64,000 nucleotides of DNA, from assembly GCA_030833445.1 (NCBI GenBank), contig JAURHD010000003.1, positions 124,001-188,000 on the forward strand, written 5' to 3'. How positions within the stretch are numbered: the stretch's first letter is position 1; each line of letters starts with the position of its first letter. This stretch comes from Cephaloticoccus sp. (lineage in GTDB: Bacteria; Verrucomicrobiota; Verrucomicrobiia; Opitutales; Opitutaceae). This document shows, one piece after another, positions 26,371 to 50,465 of the stretch. Below the pieces are notes generated by a model. It had not been told where the DNA came from. It saw only the letters and a program-made list of their open reading frames with translations, and searched no databases. Position numbers and translations under genes: made by a program.

Positions 26371-26812
26371 GTTTTAACCCAGAGGACACAGAGTTCTCAG
26401 AGTTTGAGAATTCTGAATCGATAAGTAGGGACCGTTCTCCGAGCGTGCCGTCCGGTTCAGACCACCCATTTTAACACCGTATTGAGATAACCACGGAATA
26501 CACCGAATACACGGAAACCAATCCCTTTCGTTTAATCGAGAATCCGTGTCTTCGGTGTGTTCCGTGGTTTGGAACTCTCAGCGCTCTCTGTGAGCTCTGT
26601 GTTAAAAATAATTCCATATTCAACACAGAGAACACAGAGTTCTCAGAGATAGAGATCCCATCCATGTCTATCTGTGTTAATCCTTGGTTCAAAATTCTGC
26701 GGCTCCGCGTCTCTGCGTGAGCCCTGTGCATGATTCGCGTCGATTAGCGCTCATCAGCGGTTAAAATCCTTCCGTGTAGTCCGTGTGCTCCGTGGTAAAT
26801 ACAATCTACCAC
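26371..26812. repeat. Repeat-filled spacer between convergent pdhC and phospho-sugar mutase
   Basis: No gene is present. The spacer holds a CACAGAG-type motif (26381-26401) and a CCACGGAATACACCGAATAC-type copy (26491-26519) with its inverted partner (26543-26567) across a 24-nt loop. Inverted CTCTGTGTT (about 26585-26604) and direct CACAGAG copies (about 26621-26649) follow, then CTGCGGCTCCGCGTCTCTGC, a GATTAGCGCTCATCAGCGG motif, and a further CCGTGT...CCGTGG copy (26770-26797). The paired arms can fold into long hairpins. Confidence 0.8.
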
Positions 26813-28762: not shown

Positions 28763-29109
28763 GAGTAAAGTGGTGGATGGATTCGAAATTTAAACACAGA
28801 GTTCACGGAGAACACGGAGAGAACAAATCGAAATCTTACAAAGATAGAGCCGTGAATGAACTAGAATTAATGCTCAGGGCTACATTTCGATGCAAGCGGC
28901 GAGCGGCCATCGCCGTTAACTGGTTTTCCTTCATCGGTAACTCCTCTGCGTTCTCCGTGTAGAATAAATACACAAAAGACTGGGATCCGTTTCTGTGTAT
29001 TCAGTGTTTTCCGAGGTGATAGCTGTCCTCCCTGCCCTCCGTAGCCTAAGCCTACGCACGTGGCGAAGGAGGGTGTGCAAAAAAATTCCTCTGTGTTAAT
29101 TGATAAACC
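28763..29109. repeat. Repeat spacer upstream of phospho-sugar mutase
   Basis: No gene is seen. It holds AACACAGAGTTCACGGAGAA (28793-28812), inverted CTCTGCGTTCTCCGTGTAG (about 28945-28963), TTTCTGTGTATTCAGTGTTT (about 28991-29010) and a degenerate palindromic element (CCCTCCGTAGCCTAAGCC to GGCGAAGGAGGG, about 29035-29074). The promoter for the mutase gene must lie in or near this stretch. Confidence 0.65.
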
Positions 29110-33938: not shown

Positions 33939-34522
33939 AATCTGTTTTTAACACAGAGATCACTGAGTCAGAGTTCCTAAATTGTAGGGCGGGCGTCGCT
34001 GACCCCGCCTCTTGAGCGATCCAAAACAGTCTCACGCAGAGGCGCCGAGCCGCAGAGAGAATACTGTCTTAAGGTAGGGACGGACCGCCGGGCCGTCCGT
34101 TCAGATTATTTAACGCACCCAGCCTTCGCATAGCCTACGGCGGGCAAGGAGGTCACTGAGATCACTGAGTTATCACCACGGAATACACGAAACACACGGA
34201 AGTGTTTTGTTCAGAACCTACTTTTGAACCACGAATGGACACTAATAGCCGCGAATTTTCTGAAGTAACCTGGTGGATTTGATCCATTCGTGAGCATTGG
34301 TGTTCATTCGTGGTTACTCAACTGGATCGGTTTCTGTGTATTCTGTGTTTTCTATGGTTAATACCTCTCCGCGTCTCTGCGTCTCCGCGTGATACAAGCC
34401 ATTTCAACACAGAGGTCACAGAGATCACAGAGATTGAGGACAAATTCTTTGCGAGTTCTGTGCCTTTTTGCGGCCAATCCAACTTTCCGTGTGTTCCGTG
34501 TATTCCGTGGTTTAACAACCAC
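33939..34522. repeat. Repeat spacer between convergent sugar transferase and fusion gene
   Basis: No gene is seen. It contains TTTTTAACACAGAGATCACTG (33946), GTAGGGCGGGCGTCGCTGAC (33985), CACGCAGAGGCGCCGAGCCG (34032), and a palindromic element CCCAGCCTTCGC...CTACGGCGGGCAAGG (about 34118-34150). A CCACGGAATACACGAAACAC copy (34176) follows. A separate inverted pair AACCACGAATGGACAC / GTGTTCATTCGTGGTT lies at about 34225-34317. Further CCGTGT...CCGTGG and CACAGAG copies follow up to 34514. Confidence 0.75.
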
Positions 34523-35611: not shown

Positions 35612-35921
35612 GGGGATTGAGGGATAAGGAGTTGGGCCAATGTGGAAAGGAGGAAAGTTAGAACGGACCCAATCCTCTTTCTCTTAATCTTTATCATTCT
35701 CTTTCTCCCACTCCACGCTCCCGGCCTCGTCGCGCCATCTTGTCCGCCATAGCTACACTCAATCCCTTGCGCTCTTTTCGACTTTTTGCGGCCATCCAGT
35801 TTCTAACACAGAGAGCACAGAGTTCTCAGAGGATAAAATACCCAAGTCTCCATGTTCTCTGCGTCCTCTGTGTTTAATCCTATTTCCGTGTTTTCTGTGT
35901 GTTCTGTGGTCAATCCCATTT
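35612..35921. repeat. Repeat spacer downstream of polX
   Basis: No gene is seen. It carries a pyrimidine-rich stretch TCTTTCTCTTAATCTTTATC, a degenerate palindromic element GTCGCGCCATCTTGTCCGCC at about 35729, TTTTTGCGGCCA (35784), CACAGAG motifs (35803-35829), inverted CCTCTGTGTT (35869) and CCGTGTTTTCTGTGTGTTCT (35887). Confidence 0.65.
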
Positions 35922-37682: not shown

Positions 37683-38260
37683 GGGAGAAGCGATAAGCAC
37701 TAAGCGGTAAGCCGTAAGCTAAAAAAGCGGGGAGTTGATCGGAATTGGCCTCACGCACCCAGCCTTCGCTGAAGCTTCGGCGGGCAAGGAGGTCGCGGAG
37801 CCGCAGAGAGACATGAAGTAAACCACGGAATACACAGAAAACACGGAAGGGAAATAACACAGAGCACACAGAGGCCGCAGAGAAAGACTTGATATCCGTA
37901 AAAAGGCACAAAATTCACAAAAGGATTCTATGTCTCTGAGGACTCCGTGAACTCTGTATTGAAAATATAGGACTGAGGTTTGGAAGCCTTTTCCGTGTAT
38001 TCCGTGTGTTTCGTGGTTAATCAAATTCTGCGTCCTTTTGCGCCTCTTTGCGGCCAATTTTGCCTTGGTTATAATTCCTCTGAGAGCTCCGCGTCTCTGC
38101 GTGAGCCTTAGTCACTGTCATCAGCGACCATCAGCGTTCATCCTTGCCGCGCCATAGCTTCAGCGAAGGCGGGAGCGGTTAAATCTCTCTGCGTCTCTGC
38201 GTGAGACAATCCCCGCATTTGTATTCTCGCCCACGGACCCAATATCCCCAGATTACCCCC
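37683..38260. repeat. Repeat spacer between polX and thioesterase
   Basis: No gene is seen. In order it contains a palindromic element (37754-37794), CGCGGAGCCGCAGAG, CCACGGAATACACAGAAAAC (37823), ACACAGAGCACACAGAG (37857), AAAAAGGCACAAAATTCACA, inverted GAACTCTGTATT, a unique loop (about 37959-37990), CCGTGTATTCCGTGTGTTTC (37993), TTTTGCGCCTCTTTGCGGCC, CGCGTCTCTGCGTGAGCC, two ATCAGCG copies, and a second palindromic element near 38146-38176. The order is roughly mirror-symmetric. Confidence 0.75.
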
Positions 38261-40932: not shown

Positions 40933-41631
40933 GGAAAGCAGCCTCACGCAGAGACGCAGAGTCGCGGAGAGATGCGACCAAGTAGGAGTTTAGAAACGTT
41001 GCCTCACGGCTCTGCGGCTCTGCGTGAGCCAATGCTGTCTTCTGCATTCCACTTAGTGGTTAAGCCAAACCAGACTTTCCAATGCAAAGCGCACAAAGAA
41101 CTCGGTGTTTAGCACACCCACCGTCACGCCAATCAGGATTAGCCGCGAAAAGTCGCAAAAATCATTAACTGATGAGACATTAAAGGCGCCTATAGGCGCG
41201 CGGGTGAGCCAATAACAGTGACGCTATTTTGTGCATTTTTGCGGCCAAAGGATTTCCAACACACCCAGCCTTCGCCACTTGTTTCTCAGAGGATTTGCAT
41301 ATCTGGAAGGCTACGGCGGGCAAGGAGTTCACAGAGGTTGTAGGGCGGGATCGCCGATCCCGCCTTTTGCATTTCACCCCAATCGATTGGCGGGATCAGC
41401 GATACCCGCCCTACATCGCATTCATTACCTCACGGCTCTGCGGCTCCGCGCCTCTGCGTGAGCCAATGCCTTCTTCCGTGTGTTCCGTGTGTTCCGTGGT
41501 TAATAACTGTGCGTCCTCCTTGCCCGCCGTAGCCTAAGGGGCGAAGGCTGGGTGCGTGAGACCATTTCCAGTGTATTCAAAGTTCCCACTTGCATGGCGT
41601 CAGAATCCCGATATTCCGTTTACGGCAACTC
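40933..41631. repeat. Repeat spacer between menC and guaB
   Basis: No gene is seen in this 699-bp divergent interval. It holds CACGCAGAGACGCAGAGTCG (40944), inverted CTGCGTGAG copies, GTTGTAGGGCGGGATCGCCG and its inverted partner GGGATCAGCGATACCCGCCC (41337-41412), an interrupted palindromic element (41260-41330), CCGTGTGTTCCGTGTGTTCC (41476) and a reverse-oriented palindromic element (41515-41560). Promoters of both genes must be embedded here. Confidence 0.75.
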
Positions 41632-43218: not shown

Positions 43219-43764
43219 GATTTAGGCGGAAGTCTAACACACCCGCCTTCGCCGCAGGCTATGGCGGGCAAGGATGTCACAGAGGACACTGAGAAATACT
43301 CAGGGCACCACGGAATACACCGAACACACGGAAAAGACTCACGCACCCAGCCTTCGCCCCTTAGGCTACGGCGGGCAAGGAGGACGCGGAGCCGCAGAGG
43401 AAAACGTCCTAAATACAGGTATTAAACACAGAGTACACAGAGGCCACAGAGGGAAATACCCTGATAGTCTCTGCGCTCTCTGTGTGCTCTGTGTTAGTAA
43501 ACTTCCGTGTTTTCCGTGGTCGAACTCATCCGTGGTTTTAAACTCTGCGCCTCAGCGGCTCTGCGTGAGTATTTGCAACCTTTTGTGCCTTTTACGGCCA
43601 ATGTCTCTGCGTCCTCTGTGAGCTCTGTGTTAAAAGGTCTGTAAGCTCCCTGATGACACAGCCGGCCACCCCCGGTGATCGGTTTTTTATTGCCCTACCC
43701 CCTCCCCTTGGTTTTTCCCTTAACGGCAACAGGGGTCCTGCCGACTTCGGTTGCCGCGCCAACC
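43219..43764. repeat. Repeat spacer between guaB and purA
   Basis: No gene is seen. It contains palindromic elements at 43238-43277 and 43341-43385, CCACGGAATACACCGAACAC (43308), CGCGGAGCCGCAGAGG, then AACACAGAGTACACAGAGGC (43424). Inverted CTCTGTGTGCTCTGTGTTAG (about 43478-43497) and CCGTGTTTTCCGTGG (43504) follow, so the block is mirror-ordered. CTGCGTGAG, TTTTGTGCCTTTTACGGCCA and CTCTGTGTTAAAA close it. Confidence 0.75.
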
Positions 43765-45297: not shown

Positions 45298-45526
45298 GGC
45301 TCAGGTTACCTACCACGGAATACACAGAATACACGGAAGAAGGTTCCAGTCCCTAGTCTCTGATTTTTAACACAGAGGTCACAGAGGCTGCAGAGAAAGA
45401 GGGATTGTTTTAAACTCCGTGATCTCTGTTTGCTCTGTGTTAGTAGACTTCCGTGTGTTCTGTGTATTCCGTGGTGATAATTCCGTATACTCTGCGGCTC
45501 TGCGTGAGACTCTTCCCTGATTTGCC
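45298..45526. repeat. Nested palindrome between convergent purA and folC
   Basis: The outer arms are CCACGGAATACACAGAATAC (45313) and its inverted partner ending CTGTGTATTCCGTGGTG (about 45449-45476). The inner arms are AACACAGAGGTCACAGAGG (about 45369) and CTCTGTTTGCTCTGTGTTAG (about 45424-45443). The whole can fold as one long hairpin and could act as a bidirectional terminator. Confidence 0.8.
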
Positions 45527-48451: not shown

Positions 48452-48844
48452 GGTGAGGTTTTACCACAGATCACCCGGAATACACGGAATTATGGATGGC
48501 CGCAAAAAGATCAAACGACCGCGAACTAAGTAACCACAGAACACATGGAACACACTGAAAAGGCTTCCAAGCCTCTGTCCTATATTTTCAACACAGAGGA
48601 CACAGAGAAGAGGTTCTTAGTTTTAACTCTGAGATCTCTGTGTGCTCTGTGTTATTTCCCTTCCGTGTTTTCTGTGTATTCTGTGGTTAACTTCCTATTG
48701 CAAACTCTGCGTCTCCGCGGCTCTGCGTGAGTTCACTCCTGATCTTCGTTGAATCAGAATCCGTGTGTTCGGTGTATTCCGTGGTGACCATGGATTAATA
48801 TGCTTCTGGCTCAGCCATACCGCGGGCTGGCTAGTGGTTCCCGA
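48452..48844. repeat. Nested palindromic spacer downstream of truA
   Basis: No gene is seen. A degenerate CCACAGATCACCCGGAATAC copy (48463) is followed by a complete nested set: AACCACAGAACACATGGAAC (48531), a unique segment AAAAGGCTTCCAAGCCTCTG (48557), AACACAGAGGACACAGAG (48590), inverted CTCTGTGTGCTCTGTGTTA (about 48634) and CTTCCGTGTTTTCTGTGTAT (48660). CTGCGTCTCCGCGGCTCTGC and another CCGTGTGTTCGGTGTATTCC (48764) follow. Confidence 0.75.
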
Positions 48845-49633
48845 TCAGTAAAATACCTTGGTTAAAAACAAGCCCTGGGCAGGGGCGGTCTGGACAACTT
48901 CCGTGCGCCGCCGGGACTTCAGGATCCGCTCAACTTCATCCGGGCCGAGGCGTCCTTCACCCACCGAGACCAAGAGCCCGGCCAAACTGCGCACCATCTT
49001 GTAGAGAAAGCCATCGCCCGTCGCCGTAATCCGGATCTGCGCGCCGCGTTTGACGACATCCAACCGACGCAAGGTGCGGATCGTGTCGTCTTTTTCGGGT
49101 CCATTGAGCGCGGTGAGCGCGCGAAAATCATGTTTCCCGCAGAGCCGCTTCGCCGCGGCCTGCATCGCCGCGATATCCAGCGGCCGATAAACCACCCAGG
49201 TGTAAGGCCGGGTAAACGGATCCGCATCGCCCAGGTGCACATAGTAATCGTAACGCTTGCCGCTGGCATCGAAGCGCGCATGAAAATCCGCTTTGGCTGG
49301 TCGGGCCGATTTGATCTGAATGCTCGCCGGCAAACCGTTGCGCAGCGCCATCAGCAGTTTCTGTTCACCATGCGGCCAGACTGCATCGAAATGAAAAACC
49401 TGACCGCGCGCATGCACCCCGGCATCAGTCCGCCCACTGCCGTGAATACGCACCGGCGTTTTCATGATGTCAGCCAAGCGTGTCTCGATGATATCCTGAA
49501 TCGCCCGGCCGCGGACCTGACTCTGCCAACCCGCCAAGCCCGTGCCATCGTAGGCGCAGATACATTTCCAACGGGAGGGTTTGGTTACCACGGAATTCAC
49601 GGAAGACACGGAATTAACGGACGATCCTTTCAT
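48845..49633 (-). CDS. truA: tRNA pseudouridine(38-40) synthase
   Basis: Isomerizes uridines 38-40 in tRNA anticodon arms. The catalytic Asp is in HGSGRTDAGVHARGQVFHF; other blocks are CAYDGTGLAGWQSQVRGRAI, KRYDYYVHLGDADPF, and FLYKMVRSLAGLLVSVGEGR. The N-terminus is odd: ATG 49633 overlaps the upstream GxxExxY gene and is followed by codons VNSVSSVNSVV read from the CACGGAA repeat. A GTG at 49591, giving MVTKPSRWKCICAYDGTG, may be the real start. Either way, translation initiation lies in the repeat. Confidence 0.92.
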   Translation of the reverse strand: MKGSSVNSVSSVNSVVTKPSRWKCICAYDGTGLAGWQSQVRGRAIQDIIETRLADIMKTPVRIHGSGRTDAGVHARGQVFHFDAVWPHGEQKLLMALRNGLPASIQIKSARPAKADFHARFDASGKRYDYYVHLGDADPFTRPYTWVVYRPLDIAAMQAAAKRLCGKHDFRALTALNGPEKDDTIRTLRRLDVVKRGAQIRITATGDGFLYKMVRSLAGLLVSVGEGRLGPDEVERILKSRRRTEVVQTAPAQGLFLTKVFY

Positions 49634-50026
49634 ATTCAACCAGCGGATGATGTCCAAAATCGACCAATAATCCCACCCGATGCCCTGTGGCTTTTAAATA
49701 GTTGTGCACCTGTGCCCGGTGTTCATCGGCCAAATGAGTGACTGCTTTGATTTCCAAGATCACTTTGTTGAAACAAACGAAATCCGGCTGATAAACCTGC
49801 TTCAGCTGTTCGCCACGATAATGAAGTTTCAAAATCGGTTGAGCGATGACCTCGATCTGCCGGTGTGCAAACTCGATGGTGAGACACTCCTGATAAACCG
49901 ACTCCAGAAAACCGCAGCCCTTGTCTTTATAGACTTCAAAGCAGGCACCAAGAATGGCATGCGTCTCCTCACGTAAGATCAGTTCAGCCATAGGTCTTCT
50001 TTCCGTGTATTCTGTGTCTTCCGTGG
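49588..50026. mobile_element. Candidate GxxExxY-carrying element with 26-bp inverted repeats
   Basis: The left repeat (49588-49613) begins CCACGGAATTCACGGAAGAC and ends directly at the GxxExxY stop codon. The right repeat (50001-50026) is the inverse type, ending TGTCTTCCGTGG, and abuts the yqgF stop codon at 50028. The 439-bp unit contains only the GxxExxY gene. No transposase signature is present, so mobility is inferred from structure. Confidence 0.45.
49614..49991 (-). CDS. GxxExxY family protein (PD-(D/E)XK nuclease-like)
   Basis: A 125-residue protein of the GxxExxY group. It starts MAELILREETHAILGACFEV and carries the name-giving motif G-F-L-E-S-V-Y at residues 27-33. A nuclease-like core is visible with Asp70 in YQPDFVCFNK and Glu80-x-Lys82 in VILEIKAV. 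The biochemical function is not established. It is enclosed between inverted copies of the repeat that fills other spacers of this window, and the right repeat lies just upstream of its start. Homologues are widespread and often multi-copy. Confidence 0.88.
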   Translation of the reverse strand: MAELILREETHAILGACFEVYKDKGCGFLESVYQECLTIEFAHRQIEVIAQPILKLHYRGEQLKQVYQPDFVCFNKVILEIKAVTHLADEHRAQVHNYLKATGHRVGLLVDFGHHPLVEYERIVR

Positions 50027-50027
50027 T

Positions 50028-50465
50028 TTATTCCGATTCTTCCTGGGACACGATGGGCGGGAAGCGTTGGTCCAAATAATCCTGCAGGATGATGGTGGCC
50101 GCGCGGGAATCCACCAAGCCACTCGCCCTCACTTCGCGGCGTTTGTGTTTCGCGATCGATGACTCCGCCTCAAAGCTGGTCAGCCGTTCATCAATCAAGT
50201 GAACCGGGAGCCCGAAACTGTTTTTCAAAGCCTCGGCAAAGGCATCCACTTCCTGGGCTTTGAACCCCACCGTGCCGTCCATGTTGTAGGGATAGCCCAG
50301 CACCAAGTCGGTGATTTTGCGTTGCACGATGATCTCCCCCAAGGCCAGCCAACGCAGTTCAGGGGTCGCCTGCACCAAAGCCGGCAGTGGGGTGGCCACG
50401 CCAATGTCATCGCCGTAGCCAAGGCCAATCCGGCGGGTGCCATAATCAATCCCGAGGCAACGCAT
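50028..50465 (-). CDS. yqgF: YqgF/RuvX family Holliday junction resolvase-like protein
   Basis: RNase H-fold protein linked to pre-16S rRNA 5' end maturation. The 145-residue product starts MRCLGIDYGTRRIGLGYGDD and contains the catalytic-type segments LVLGYPYNMDGTVGFKAQEV, LIDERLTSFEAESSIAK and LVDSRAATIILQDYLDQRF. The essential Asp residues are conserved. It is divergent from the ThiF-rhodanese gene across 76 bp, and its stop codon abuts the GxxExxY element. Confidence 0.94.
   Translation of the reverse strand: MRCLGIDYGTRRIGLGYGDDIGVATPLPALVQATPELRWLALGEIIVQRKITDLVLGYPYNMDGTVGFKAQEVDAFAEALKNSFGLPVHLIDERLTSFEAESSIAKHKRREVRASGLVDSRAATIILQDYLDQRFPPIVSQEESE

Follow-up and report, generated by a model that had tools for sequence, protein, structure and literature searches.

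A GxxExxY gene enclosed by inverted arrays of 7-nt words: a candidate protein-repeat partnership in Cephaloticoccus and beyond

The window analyzed here is a stretch of 64,000 nucleotides from Cephaloticoccus sp. (genome G000; G001-G008 are its congeners, L numbers denote individual loci and C numbers contigs). Between truA and yqgF it carries a small gene of the GxxExxY family enclosed by inverted arms, and this gene and its arms form one hereditary unit. The element at this junction is an insertion, and the arm-flanked arrangement is found more widely than the window, in relatives and in many named groups. Taking the analysis as a whole, we lean towards reading it as a small insertion element with a partnership resembling that of REP sequences and RAYT proteins, in which the GxxExxY nuclease would recognize the units of its own arms and re-insert both the element and arm-only copies.

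The GxxExxY gene at the yqgF-truA junction

The whole insertion spans 49583-50027, between truA (48845-49582) and yqgF (50028-50465). Within it, the GxxExxY gene (49614-49991, minus strand) encodes 125 residues. The upstream arm (50001-50027, minus strand) reads ACCACGGAA-GA-CACAGAA-TA-CACGGAA towards the gene and adjoins the yqgF stop codon; the inverted downstream arm (49587-49613, plus strand) reads ACCACGGAA-TT-CACGGAA-GA-CACGGAA and adjoins the stop codon of the GxxExxY gene itself. The original prediction had described inverted repeats abutting these two stop codons, and the arms lie where it placed them, each 27 nt long, 85% complementary to one another and 387 nt apart. Each consists of three CACGGAA-like units of 7 nt separated by 2-nt spacers, the spacer letters not being the same in the two arms; built of direct 7-nt iterations, the arms lack GTAG. 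Clusters of at least two units number 37 in the window, compared with 0-3 in 20 second-order Markov resamplings. At 49576-49590 the downstream arm seems to have displaced the start of truA, and a GTG within the end of the arm (CCGTGGTAACC) is an in-frame candidate start.

The protein matches PF13366 (E 8.6e-40; 136.2 bits against a cut-off of 22) and TIGR04256 (E 1.2e-39; 135.3 bits against a curated cut-off of 35). PF13366 is its only Pfam match, and its gene is the sole ORF of the element, without the identity of a known transposase. The AF2 model (pLDDT 93.4) has a predicted PD-(D/E)XK nuclease fold, the apparent nearest structure being Cas4 SSO0001 (4ic1; Foldseek 6.1e-5; Z 10.0 over 99 aligned residues, rmsd 3.5). 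Lambda exonuclease ranks second to the model by Foldseek; by Z, the predicted structure next resembles a Wolbachia CinB chain and the restriction enzyme SwaI (8.1 each), among others, and Hjc resolvases score Z 6-7 against it, a range that the tool rates as common. Across 56 aligned GxxExxY proteins, D70 and E80 never vary and K82 is present in at least 90%. Profile matches, predicted fold and residue conservation agree on the PD-(D/E)XK-like core that had been proposed for this 125-residue protein. The likeness to Cas4, lambda exonuclease and Hjc nucleases lies in the predicted fold and the active-site residues; unlike them, the protein is a 125-aa core, and none of its four near neighbors and ten further window genes scanned is a cas gene.

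No PDB chain matched the protein by sequence at E 1. Membership of a defense system was set aside, as PADLOC gave no match to the window protein and a single weak Cas4 match for locus L008 (E 6.4e-4). A phage or plasmid vehicle is likewise unsupported: PHROGs held no match for the window protein or L008, and a GPGLLE-type query protein matched 0 of 50,697 phage records and 8 of 72,556 plasmid records. Judging from copies kept vertically at one site in several congeners and from the sequences of one orthologous GxxExxY pair (dN 0.053, dS 0.93), the elements appear to be long-lived and under purifying selection.

Empty sites at the yqgF-truA junction of relatives, for which the original prediction had suggested looking, are present in six congeners (G001, G002, G003, G006, G007 and G008), in which the two genes abut or lie a few bases apart, compared with 445 nt in G000. 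Not counted as empty were G005, where about 106 nt separate the genes and no arms were seen, and G004, in which N runs break the locus. In another genus, G023 carries at the same junction a gene-free element with the word CGCGGAA (L192). The converse pattern is found between an ABC-transporter ATPase and its permease, where 456-462 nt hold the GxxExxY loci L023, L247 and L267 in G002, G006 and G008; this junction is empty (5-16 nt) in G000, G001, G003 and G004, and G005 and G007 gave no permease match. The same element type therefore occupies different junctions within one genus. Neither a target duplication nor an excision product was seen; for the former, the nearest empty sites belong to relatives whose proteins are roughly 75% identical, a distance that puts base resolution out of reach. 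Certain copies have been inherited vertically at a single junction, in as many as four congeners (L004, L290, L293 and L294), so the element is not highly mobile. At the gatB and alaS junctions, so named by eye from the start sequences of the genes, different genera carry elements whose words differ, in one case a PF05635 element (L007, L008, L015, L017, L060; L012, L022, L032), which suggests preferred junctions.

Arms and words across GxxExxY loci

Matched arms were sought by aligning each upstream flank with the inverted downstream flank, at a threshold score of 15. The first set held 113 loci, 33 from G000 and its relatives and the best 80 from named genomes, covering many bacterial groups and one archaeon; as the top matches to a GPGLLE-type alignment among more that existed, these 80 lean to that subtype. 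After 7 were dropped, 106 of the 113 were testable, and matched inverted arms flank 74 of these genes, with none at threshold in 32. Arm pairs mismatched between different loci reached the same score in 16.9% of cases, the longest other ORF of each locus in 6 of 101, and yqgF genes in 1 of 29. A similar run on 104 loci (9 dropped for short flanks, N runs or short proteins) gave matching inverted flanks in 73, direct in 21 and shuffled in 0. For PF13366 matches in relatives, flanks were read at the given loci and at 60 more, those left out being mostly fragments, second domains and stop-containing frames; in this second set, 48 of the 60 genes have matched inverted arms and 12 have none at threshold. 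An earlier arm detector, lag-9 autocorrelation in the flanks, failed, probably because codon periodicity swamped the signal, and matched-arm alignment with controls was used instead.

Parsing into three units, the general-pattern counts, the first Mantel coefficient below and the last-letter code all rest on the unit consensus CRCNRAD, which fixes letters by construction; those letters are therefore not independent findings. Free of this consensus are the matched-arm counts in both sets, the PF05635 arm counts and the second Mantel coefficient.

Among GxxExxY loci, the best repeat step falls between 8 and 10 nt at 67 of 78 in the first set and at 39 of 50 in the second. Unit chains were found in the right orientation at 54 and 56 of 106 loci, compared with 8 and 12 in the opposite-orientation control. 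Where at least three units were parsed per arm, the spacing vector is identical in both arms at 36 of 39 loci (permuted mean 9.1, maximum 18).

Arm similarity follows protein lineage, not genome. Protein identity correlates with unit similarity across 70 loci (Mantel r 0.504; 0 of 2000 permutations), and among the armed loci of 25 relatives, limited to the 74 with an arm score of at least 15, r is 0.431 (0 of 1000 permutations) with a same-genome coefficient of -0.01. In these 74 armed loci, pairs from different genomes show an arm similarity of about 0.26 where the proteins are less than 40% identical and of 0.72 where identity exceeds 70%; for pairs with identity of at least 0.7 it is 0.614 without a shared flank (n=15) and 0.800 with one (n=19). 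Linkage of gene and arms by shared descent alone can yield such a protein-arm correlation. The four GxxExxY genes of G000 carry four different arm words. Of the four nearest relatives of the window protein, L023, L247 and L267 (identity 0.55-0.62) share its CACGGAA word, and L026 (identity 0.59) has CGCGAAT.

A simple code, by which residues of the protein would predict the word's final letter, was dropped. In the first loci, the word ends in G for 54 of 56 GxG-L proteins and in A or T for 9 of 11 GxG-F proteins. In the second set, where words could be parsed at 23 of 60 loci, the GxG-F half recurred (6 of 6) but the GxG-L half failed: only 3 of 8 words end in G, since those of GPGLDE- and GAGLHE-type proteins end in T. 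By eye, in several genomes, GPGLDE-type proteins go with CGCGGAT and GPGFLE-type proteins with TGGAAGGC-like words. From these sequences, it seems that the finer protein subfamily sets the arm word.

Gene-free arms in the window and repeats across genomes

A unit scan located gene-free copies in many spacers of the window. A closed CACGGAA arm pair with a short loop lies at 26480-26578, and a CACAGAG-type arm together with a degenerate CACGGAA-type arm at 28783-29018. The spacer at 34165-34521 has CACGGAA arms (34177, plus; 34485, minus) around a CACGAAT pair and CACAGAG. Further along are a lone CACGGAA-type arm beside a CACAGAG-type arm (35855-35920), a CACGGAA pair around a CACAGAG arm (37812-38027) and a lone CACGGAA arm on the minus strand (41463-41510). 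Composites follow at 43297-43530 (a CACGGAA arm, a CACAGAG pair and a CACGGAA arm), at 45302-45485 (a CACAGAG pair nested in a CACGGAA pair) and in the truA-comF spacer at 48523-48795. The claim that the repeat occurs as inverted pairs in about eight gene-free spacers holds for its occurrence, with CACGGAA in eight or nine, and has to be reduced for the pairs: by eye, only about six are closed and the rest are single arms. The same spacers contain at least four further repeat kinds, which the original prediction did not tell apart (CACAGAG, CGCAGAG, CACGAAT/CGCTGAT and CGCAAAA), so that spacers of G000 hold at least five words, often nested. As far as observed, the gene-free copies share only arms with the gene-bearing element, from which they may or may not descend by internal deletion.

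G002 and G006 are syntenic with the block at about 26-50 kb. Most of the spacers that the gene-free copies fill are much shorter in these two congeners, congener lengths being distances between match ends. The spacer holding the arms at 28783-29018 measures 347 nt, compared with 20 and 38 nt in two congeners, and the truA-comF spacer 393 nt, compared with 8 and 29 nt; other inflated spacers are 642 nt versus 89 and 90 nt and 456 nt versus 154 and 50 nt in G002 and G006. For two spacers, one of the congeners has the longer one: at folC-purA, the spacer is 229 nt in G000, 2 nt in G002 and 962 nt in G006, and that at 35.6-35.9 kb is 310 nt in G000, 57 nt in G006 and 821 nt in G002. By eye, no three-unit arrays were found in the congener spacers inspected, including these last two.

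The repeats are strongly clustered. The CCACGGAA triplet has 24 matches in G000 at no more than 2 mismatches (0 in a reversed control), 18 of them within C33:150.4-174.1 kb, and 34 of 51 three-unit clusters in the 422 kb scanned fall in one 24 kb. Local hopping of the window element was dropped as a cause, as every repeat kind is gathered in that 24 kb. In this repeat island (26371-50027), at least five words fill most spacers, and over the remainder of the 422 kb they are sparse, the first 20 kb of C33 excepted. GC content in 4-kb bins is 0.57-0.64 in the island and 0.56-0.59 in the rest of the window, with a peak of 0.635 at 36-40 kb. Elsewhere, G009 has a dispersed element of about 230 bp (L084-L091) whose ends resemble AACCTAAA...GCAGTT and which contains CACGGAT arms; its arm is found in eight identical copies in mostly similar surroundings, and the same genome has a CACGGAT-armed GxxExxY gene (L279). 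On C73 of G027 (L093), about a dozen tandem copies of a gene-free hairpin of about 112 bp carry CACAGAT-type arms, and one copy contains a GxxExxY gene.

Across genomes, repeat number goes with the presence of GxxExxY genes, the correlation on which the original prediction had been staked. Matches to the general pattern are found in 25 of 27 genomes with PF13366 and in 2 of 11 without (Fisher 1.6e-5), and gene count correlates with repeat count (Spearman 0.62; 0.43 with genome size taken out), both statistics treating the genomes as independent of kinship. PF05635 counts correlate with the repeats about equally (0.60). As background, the reversed pattern gave 63 matches, spread over 20 of the 38 genomes and with 23 in G031 alone, versus 1087 for the pattern itself. 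For individual words, at least 5 matches to CACGGAA are found in all 4 genomes with a CACGGAA-armed gene versus 2 of 34 others, and at least 7 to CGCGGAT at spacing 2,3 in all 5 genomes with such a gene versus 4 of 33 others; G018 is counted among the others, as its CGCGGAT gene has spacing 2,2. These word-specific counts include the arms of the genes themselves, and arm words were assigned by eye.

Several repeat kinds are orphans. CACAGAG in G000 has no cognate among all four genes read, CACGAAA none among those read in G006 (4 of 4) and G004 (4 of 5 matches), and CACGGAA in G023, with 40 matches, none among all three read. Orphan kinds may be relics, the product of movement in trans, or evidence against a role of the protein.

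Proposed mechanism, alternatives and related systems

In the reading that we favor, a minimal GxxExxY protein, resembling Cas4 and lambda exonuclease, would recognize the units of its own arms, with perhaps one protomer or dimer bound per unit. It would process DNA at these units, and the element and arm-only copies would occasionally be re-inserted at gene junctions. Arm-only copies could be moved in trans by the cognate protein or be relics of one since lost. REP sequences are imperfect palindromes with a GTAG tag, and RAYT transposases are thought to move REP and REPIN sequences. The partnership is inferred by likeness to the published features of that system (Nunvar 2010, PMC2817692; Bertels and Rainey 2011, PMC3116915). 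In both, a nuclease gene is enclosed by an inverted pair of repeat copies, the repeat is dispersed between other genes without the gene as well, in part as inverted pairs, repeat and protein co-vary, and repeat abundance follows the cognate gene. Unlike RAYTs, GxxExxY proteins belong to the PD-(D/E)XK nucleases and not to the Y1 HUH transposases (PF01797); in place of GTAG-type palindromes, the arms have 7-nt units in arrays; and dN/dS is low in the one GxxExxY pair, whereas rayt genes are reported to be fast-evolving.

This reading is supported by the matched arms set against controls, the equal spacing vectors, the correlation of word and protein, the empty and filled sites and the spacer inflation, and further by the low dN/dS, the conserved nuclease residues and the predicted fold. 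RVT_1 had no match in G000, which also leaves movement based on a reverse transcriptase unsupported there. It is weakened by the half-failed residue code, the orphan repeat kinds and the loci without matched arms, by a clustering that goes beyond local movement of one element, and by a Y1 transposase match in G000; moreover, PF05635, which is not a nuclease family, has the same architecture. The earlier proposal that the protein mobilizes or maintains the repeats, with gene-free copies as non-autonomous derivatives, accordingly stands in part. The gene-arm unit, empty sites, inflated spacers and co-presence of gene and repeat favor it; orphan kinds, the architecture shared with PF05635 and vertical copies do not.

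PF05635 genes, which gave no match in G000, were sampled in two sets of 30 loci, one of which was dropped from each. Arms are present at 22 of 29 loci in relatives and at 23 of 29 in other named groups, with a 7-nt step in 19 of 23 in both sets; across the GxxExxY and PF05635 families, arms match in 2.5-3.4% of pairs. A host or mobile process might make and insert iterated inverted arms, with GxxExxY and PF05635 genes persisting as passengers caught between them. Two unrelated families with one architecture would fit such a process, as would their co-occurrence (27 of 35 GxxExxY genomes have a PF05635 match) and the several arm kinds without a gene among those read in the same genome. However, a passenger needs neither a family-specific step, 8-10 nt for GxxExxY and 7 nt for PF05635, nor arms whose similarity tracks the protein and not the genome. 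We consider this the strongest of the alternatives and an unlikely one.

Second comes an RNA element like the intervening sequences (IVS) of 23S rRNA, in which the arms would pair in the transcript and loop out the gene, RNase III may cut, insertion in an operon would be harmless, and the protein would act on RNA or have no role in mobility. In the predicted mRNA fold, the arms do pair around the whole gene (z -2.35; 2 of 100 shuffles equally good). Equal spacing vectors in the two arms would also be expected of it, and PF05635 is the S23 ORF of 23S rRNA intervening sequences, which are excised by RNase III, according to passages of PMC4990558. Units agree at 0.91-0.93 within an element versus 0.74 between loci, but units that face each other in the hairpin agree no better (0.913) than those out of register (0.918), and spacer letters agree at only 0.53 (0.44 out of register). 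Base pairing itself thus seems not to be conserved, which weakens a pure hairpin account of the arms; equal likeness in and out of register together with free spacer letters is better explained by units being recognized one by one at a fixed spacing than by selection for base pairing. The predicted GxxExxY fold, moreover, resembles DNA nucleases. We regard the RNA account, too, as improbable.

That the arms are regulatory or terminator hairpins of the host with a positional function, the gene being a spacer resident and nothing moving, would agree with their place between genes and with the vertical copies in four congeners; it is hard to reconcile with clean empty sites, inflated G000 spacers and similar arms across genomes without shared flanks, and we think it very improbable. 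Hardly any credence is due to the arms being REP sequences served by a RAYT of G000, for which there are one Y1_Tnp match (C2:14725) and a separate palindrome, since no unit triplets lie in the 4 kb examined near the Y1_Tnp gene, the window arms lack GTAG and such arms flank GxxExxY genes in many groups. The palindrome in question is a REP-like sequence (GCTACGGCGGGCAAGGA) with copies at 41310, 41517 and 43365 of the window.

The favored partnership of nuclease and arms can also be set beside other known elements. With MITEs and insertion sequences, it shares inverted ends around an ORF and gene-free derivatives; unlike them, it encodes no transposase and displays no visible target duplication, at the resolution that the distant relatives allow. 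With 23S intervening sequences, it shares a small ORF within inverted arms that could pair as RNA, a sporadic distribution and a role in mobility proposed earlier for the ORF in passages of PMC4990558; it differs in lying at the protein-gene junction yqgF-truA and not in rRNA, in encoding PF13366 and not S23 (PF05635), and in having arms of iterated units. Cyanobacterial STRR sequences are short 7-nt words repeated between genes. They and intergenic heptamer direct repeats such as TAACTGA resemble the present arms in being 7-nt words in few repeats between genes. The heptamers are described in parts of MacGregor (2015, PMC4679880) as patchy across phyla, with few repeats between genes and an origin left unreported; unlike here, those parts name no gene partner or inverted-arm architecture. 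TAACTGA-type heptamers may possibly be PF05635-type arms.

The GxxExxY family is named in PMC8934634 and PMC12085832, and in searches of the open-access literature no listing, abstract or passage that came up, those of PMC4853749 included, links GxxExxY or PF05635 genes to such arms; a partnership of this protein with a mobile repeat looks to be undescribed. TIGR04256, a common family of unknown function, gains a likely partner sequence, and the results suggest a possible cause for short iterated intergenic repeats that were reported without an origin. If true, this would add to REP/RAYT a second, unrelated example of such an arrangement, and a protein family whose many lineages differ in DNA word and spacing would form a natural data set for a recognition code. 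The PF05635 parallel bears on the old question of how 23S rRNA intervening sequences and S23 ORFs spread.

With more doubt than confidence, we also put forward that these elements may belong to a general class of minimal selfish elements in many phyla, whose ends are arrays of a word of about 7 nt per lineage. At least two unrelated proteins, the GxxExxY nuclease with a step of 8-10 nt and the four-helix bundle S23 with one of 7 nt, would each read and maintain their own word, and 23S intervening sequences, TAACTGA-type heptamers and CACGGAAT-type spacer repeats would be forms of it. Among the PF05635 loci, L034-L063 and L214-L243 are four-helix-bundle S23 genes in spacers between protein genes, with inverted arms of mostly 7-nt words such as AGTCAGG, GAGTTGA and CGTTGGT. 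A single genome, G057, has 35 PF05635 matches.
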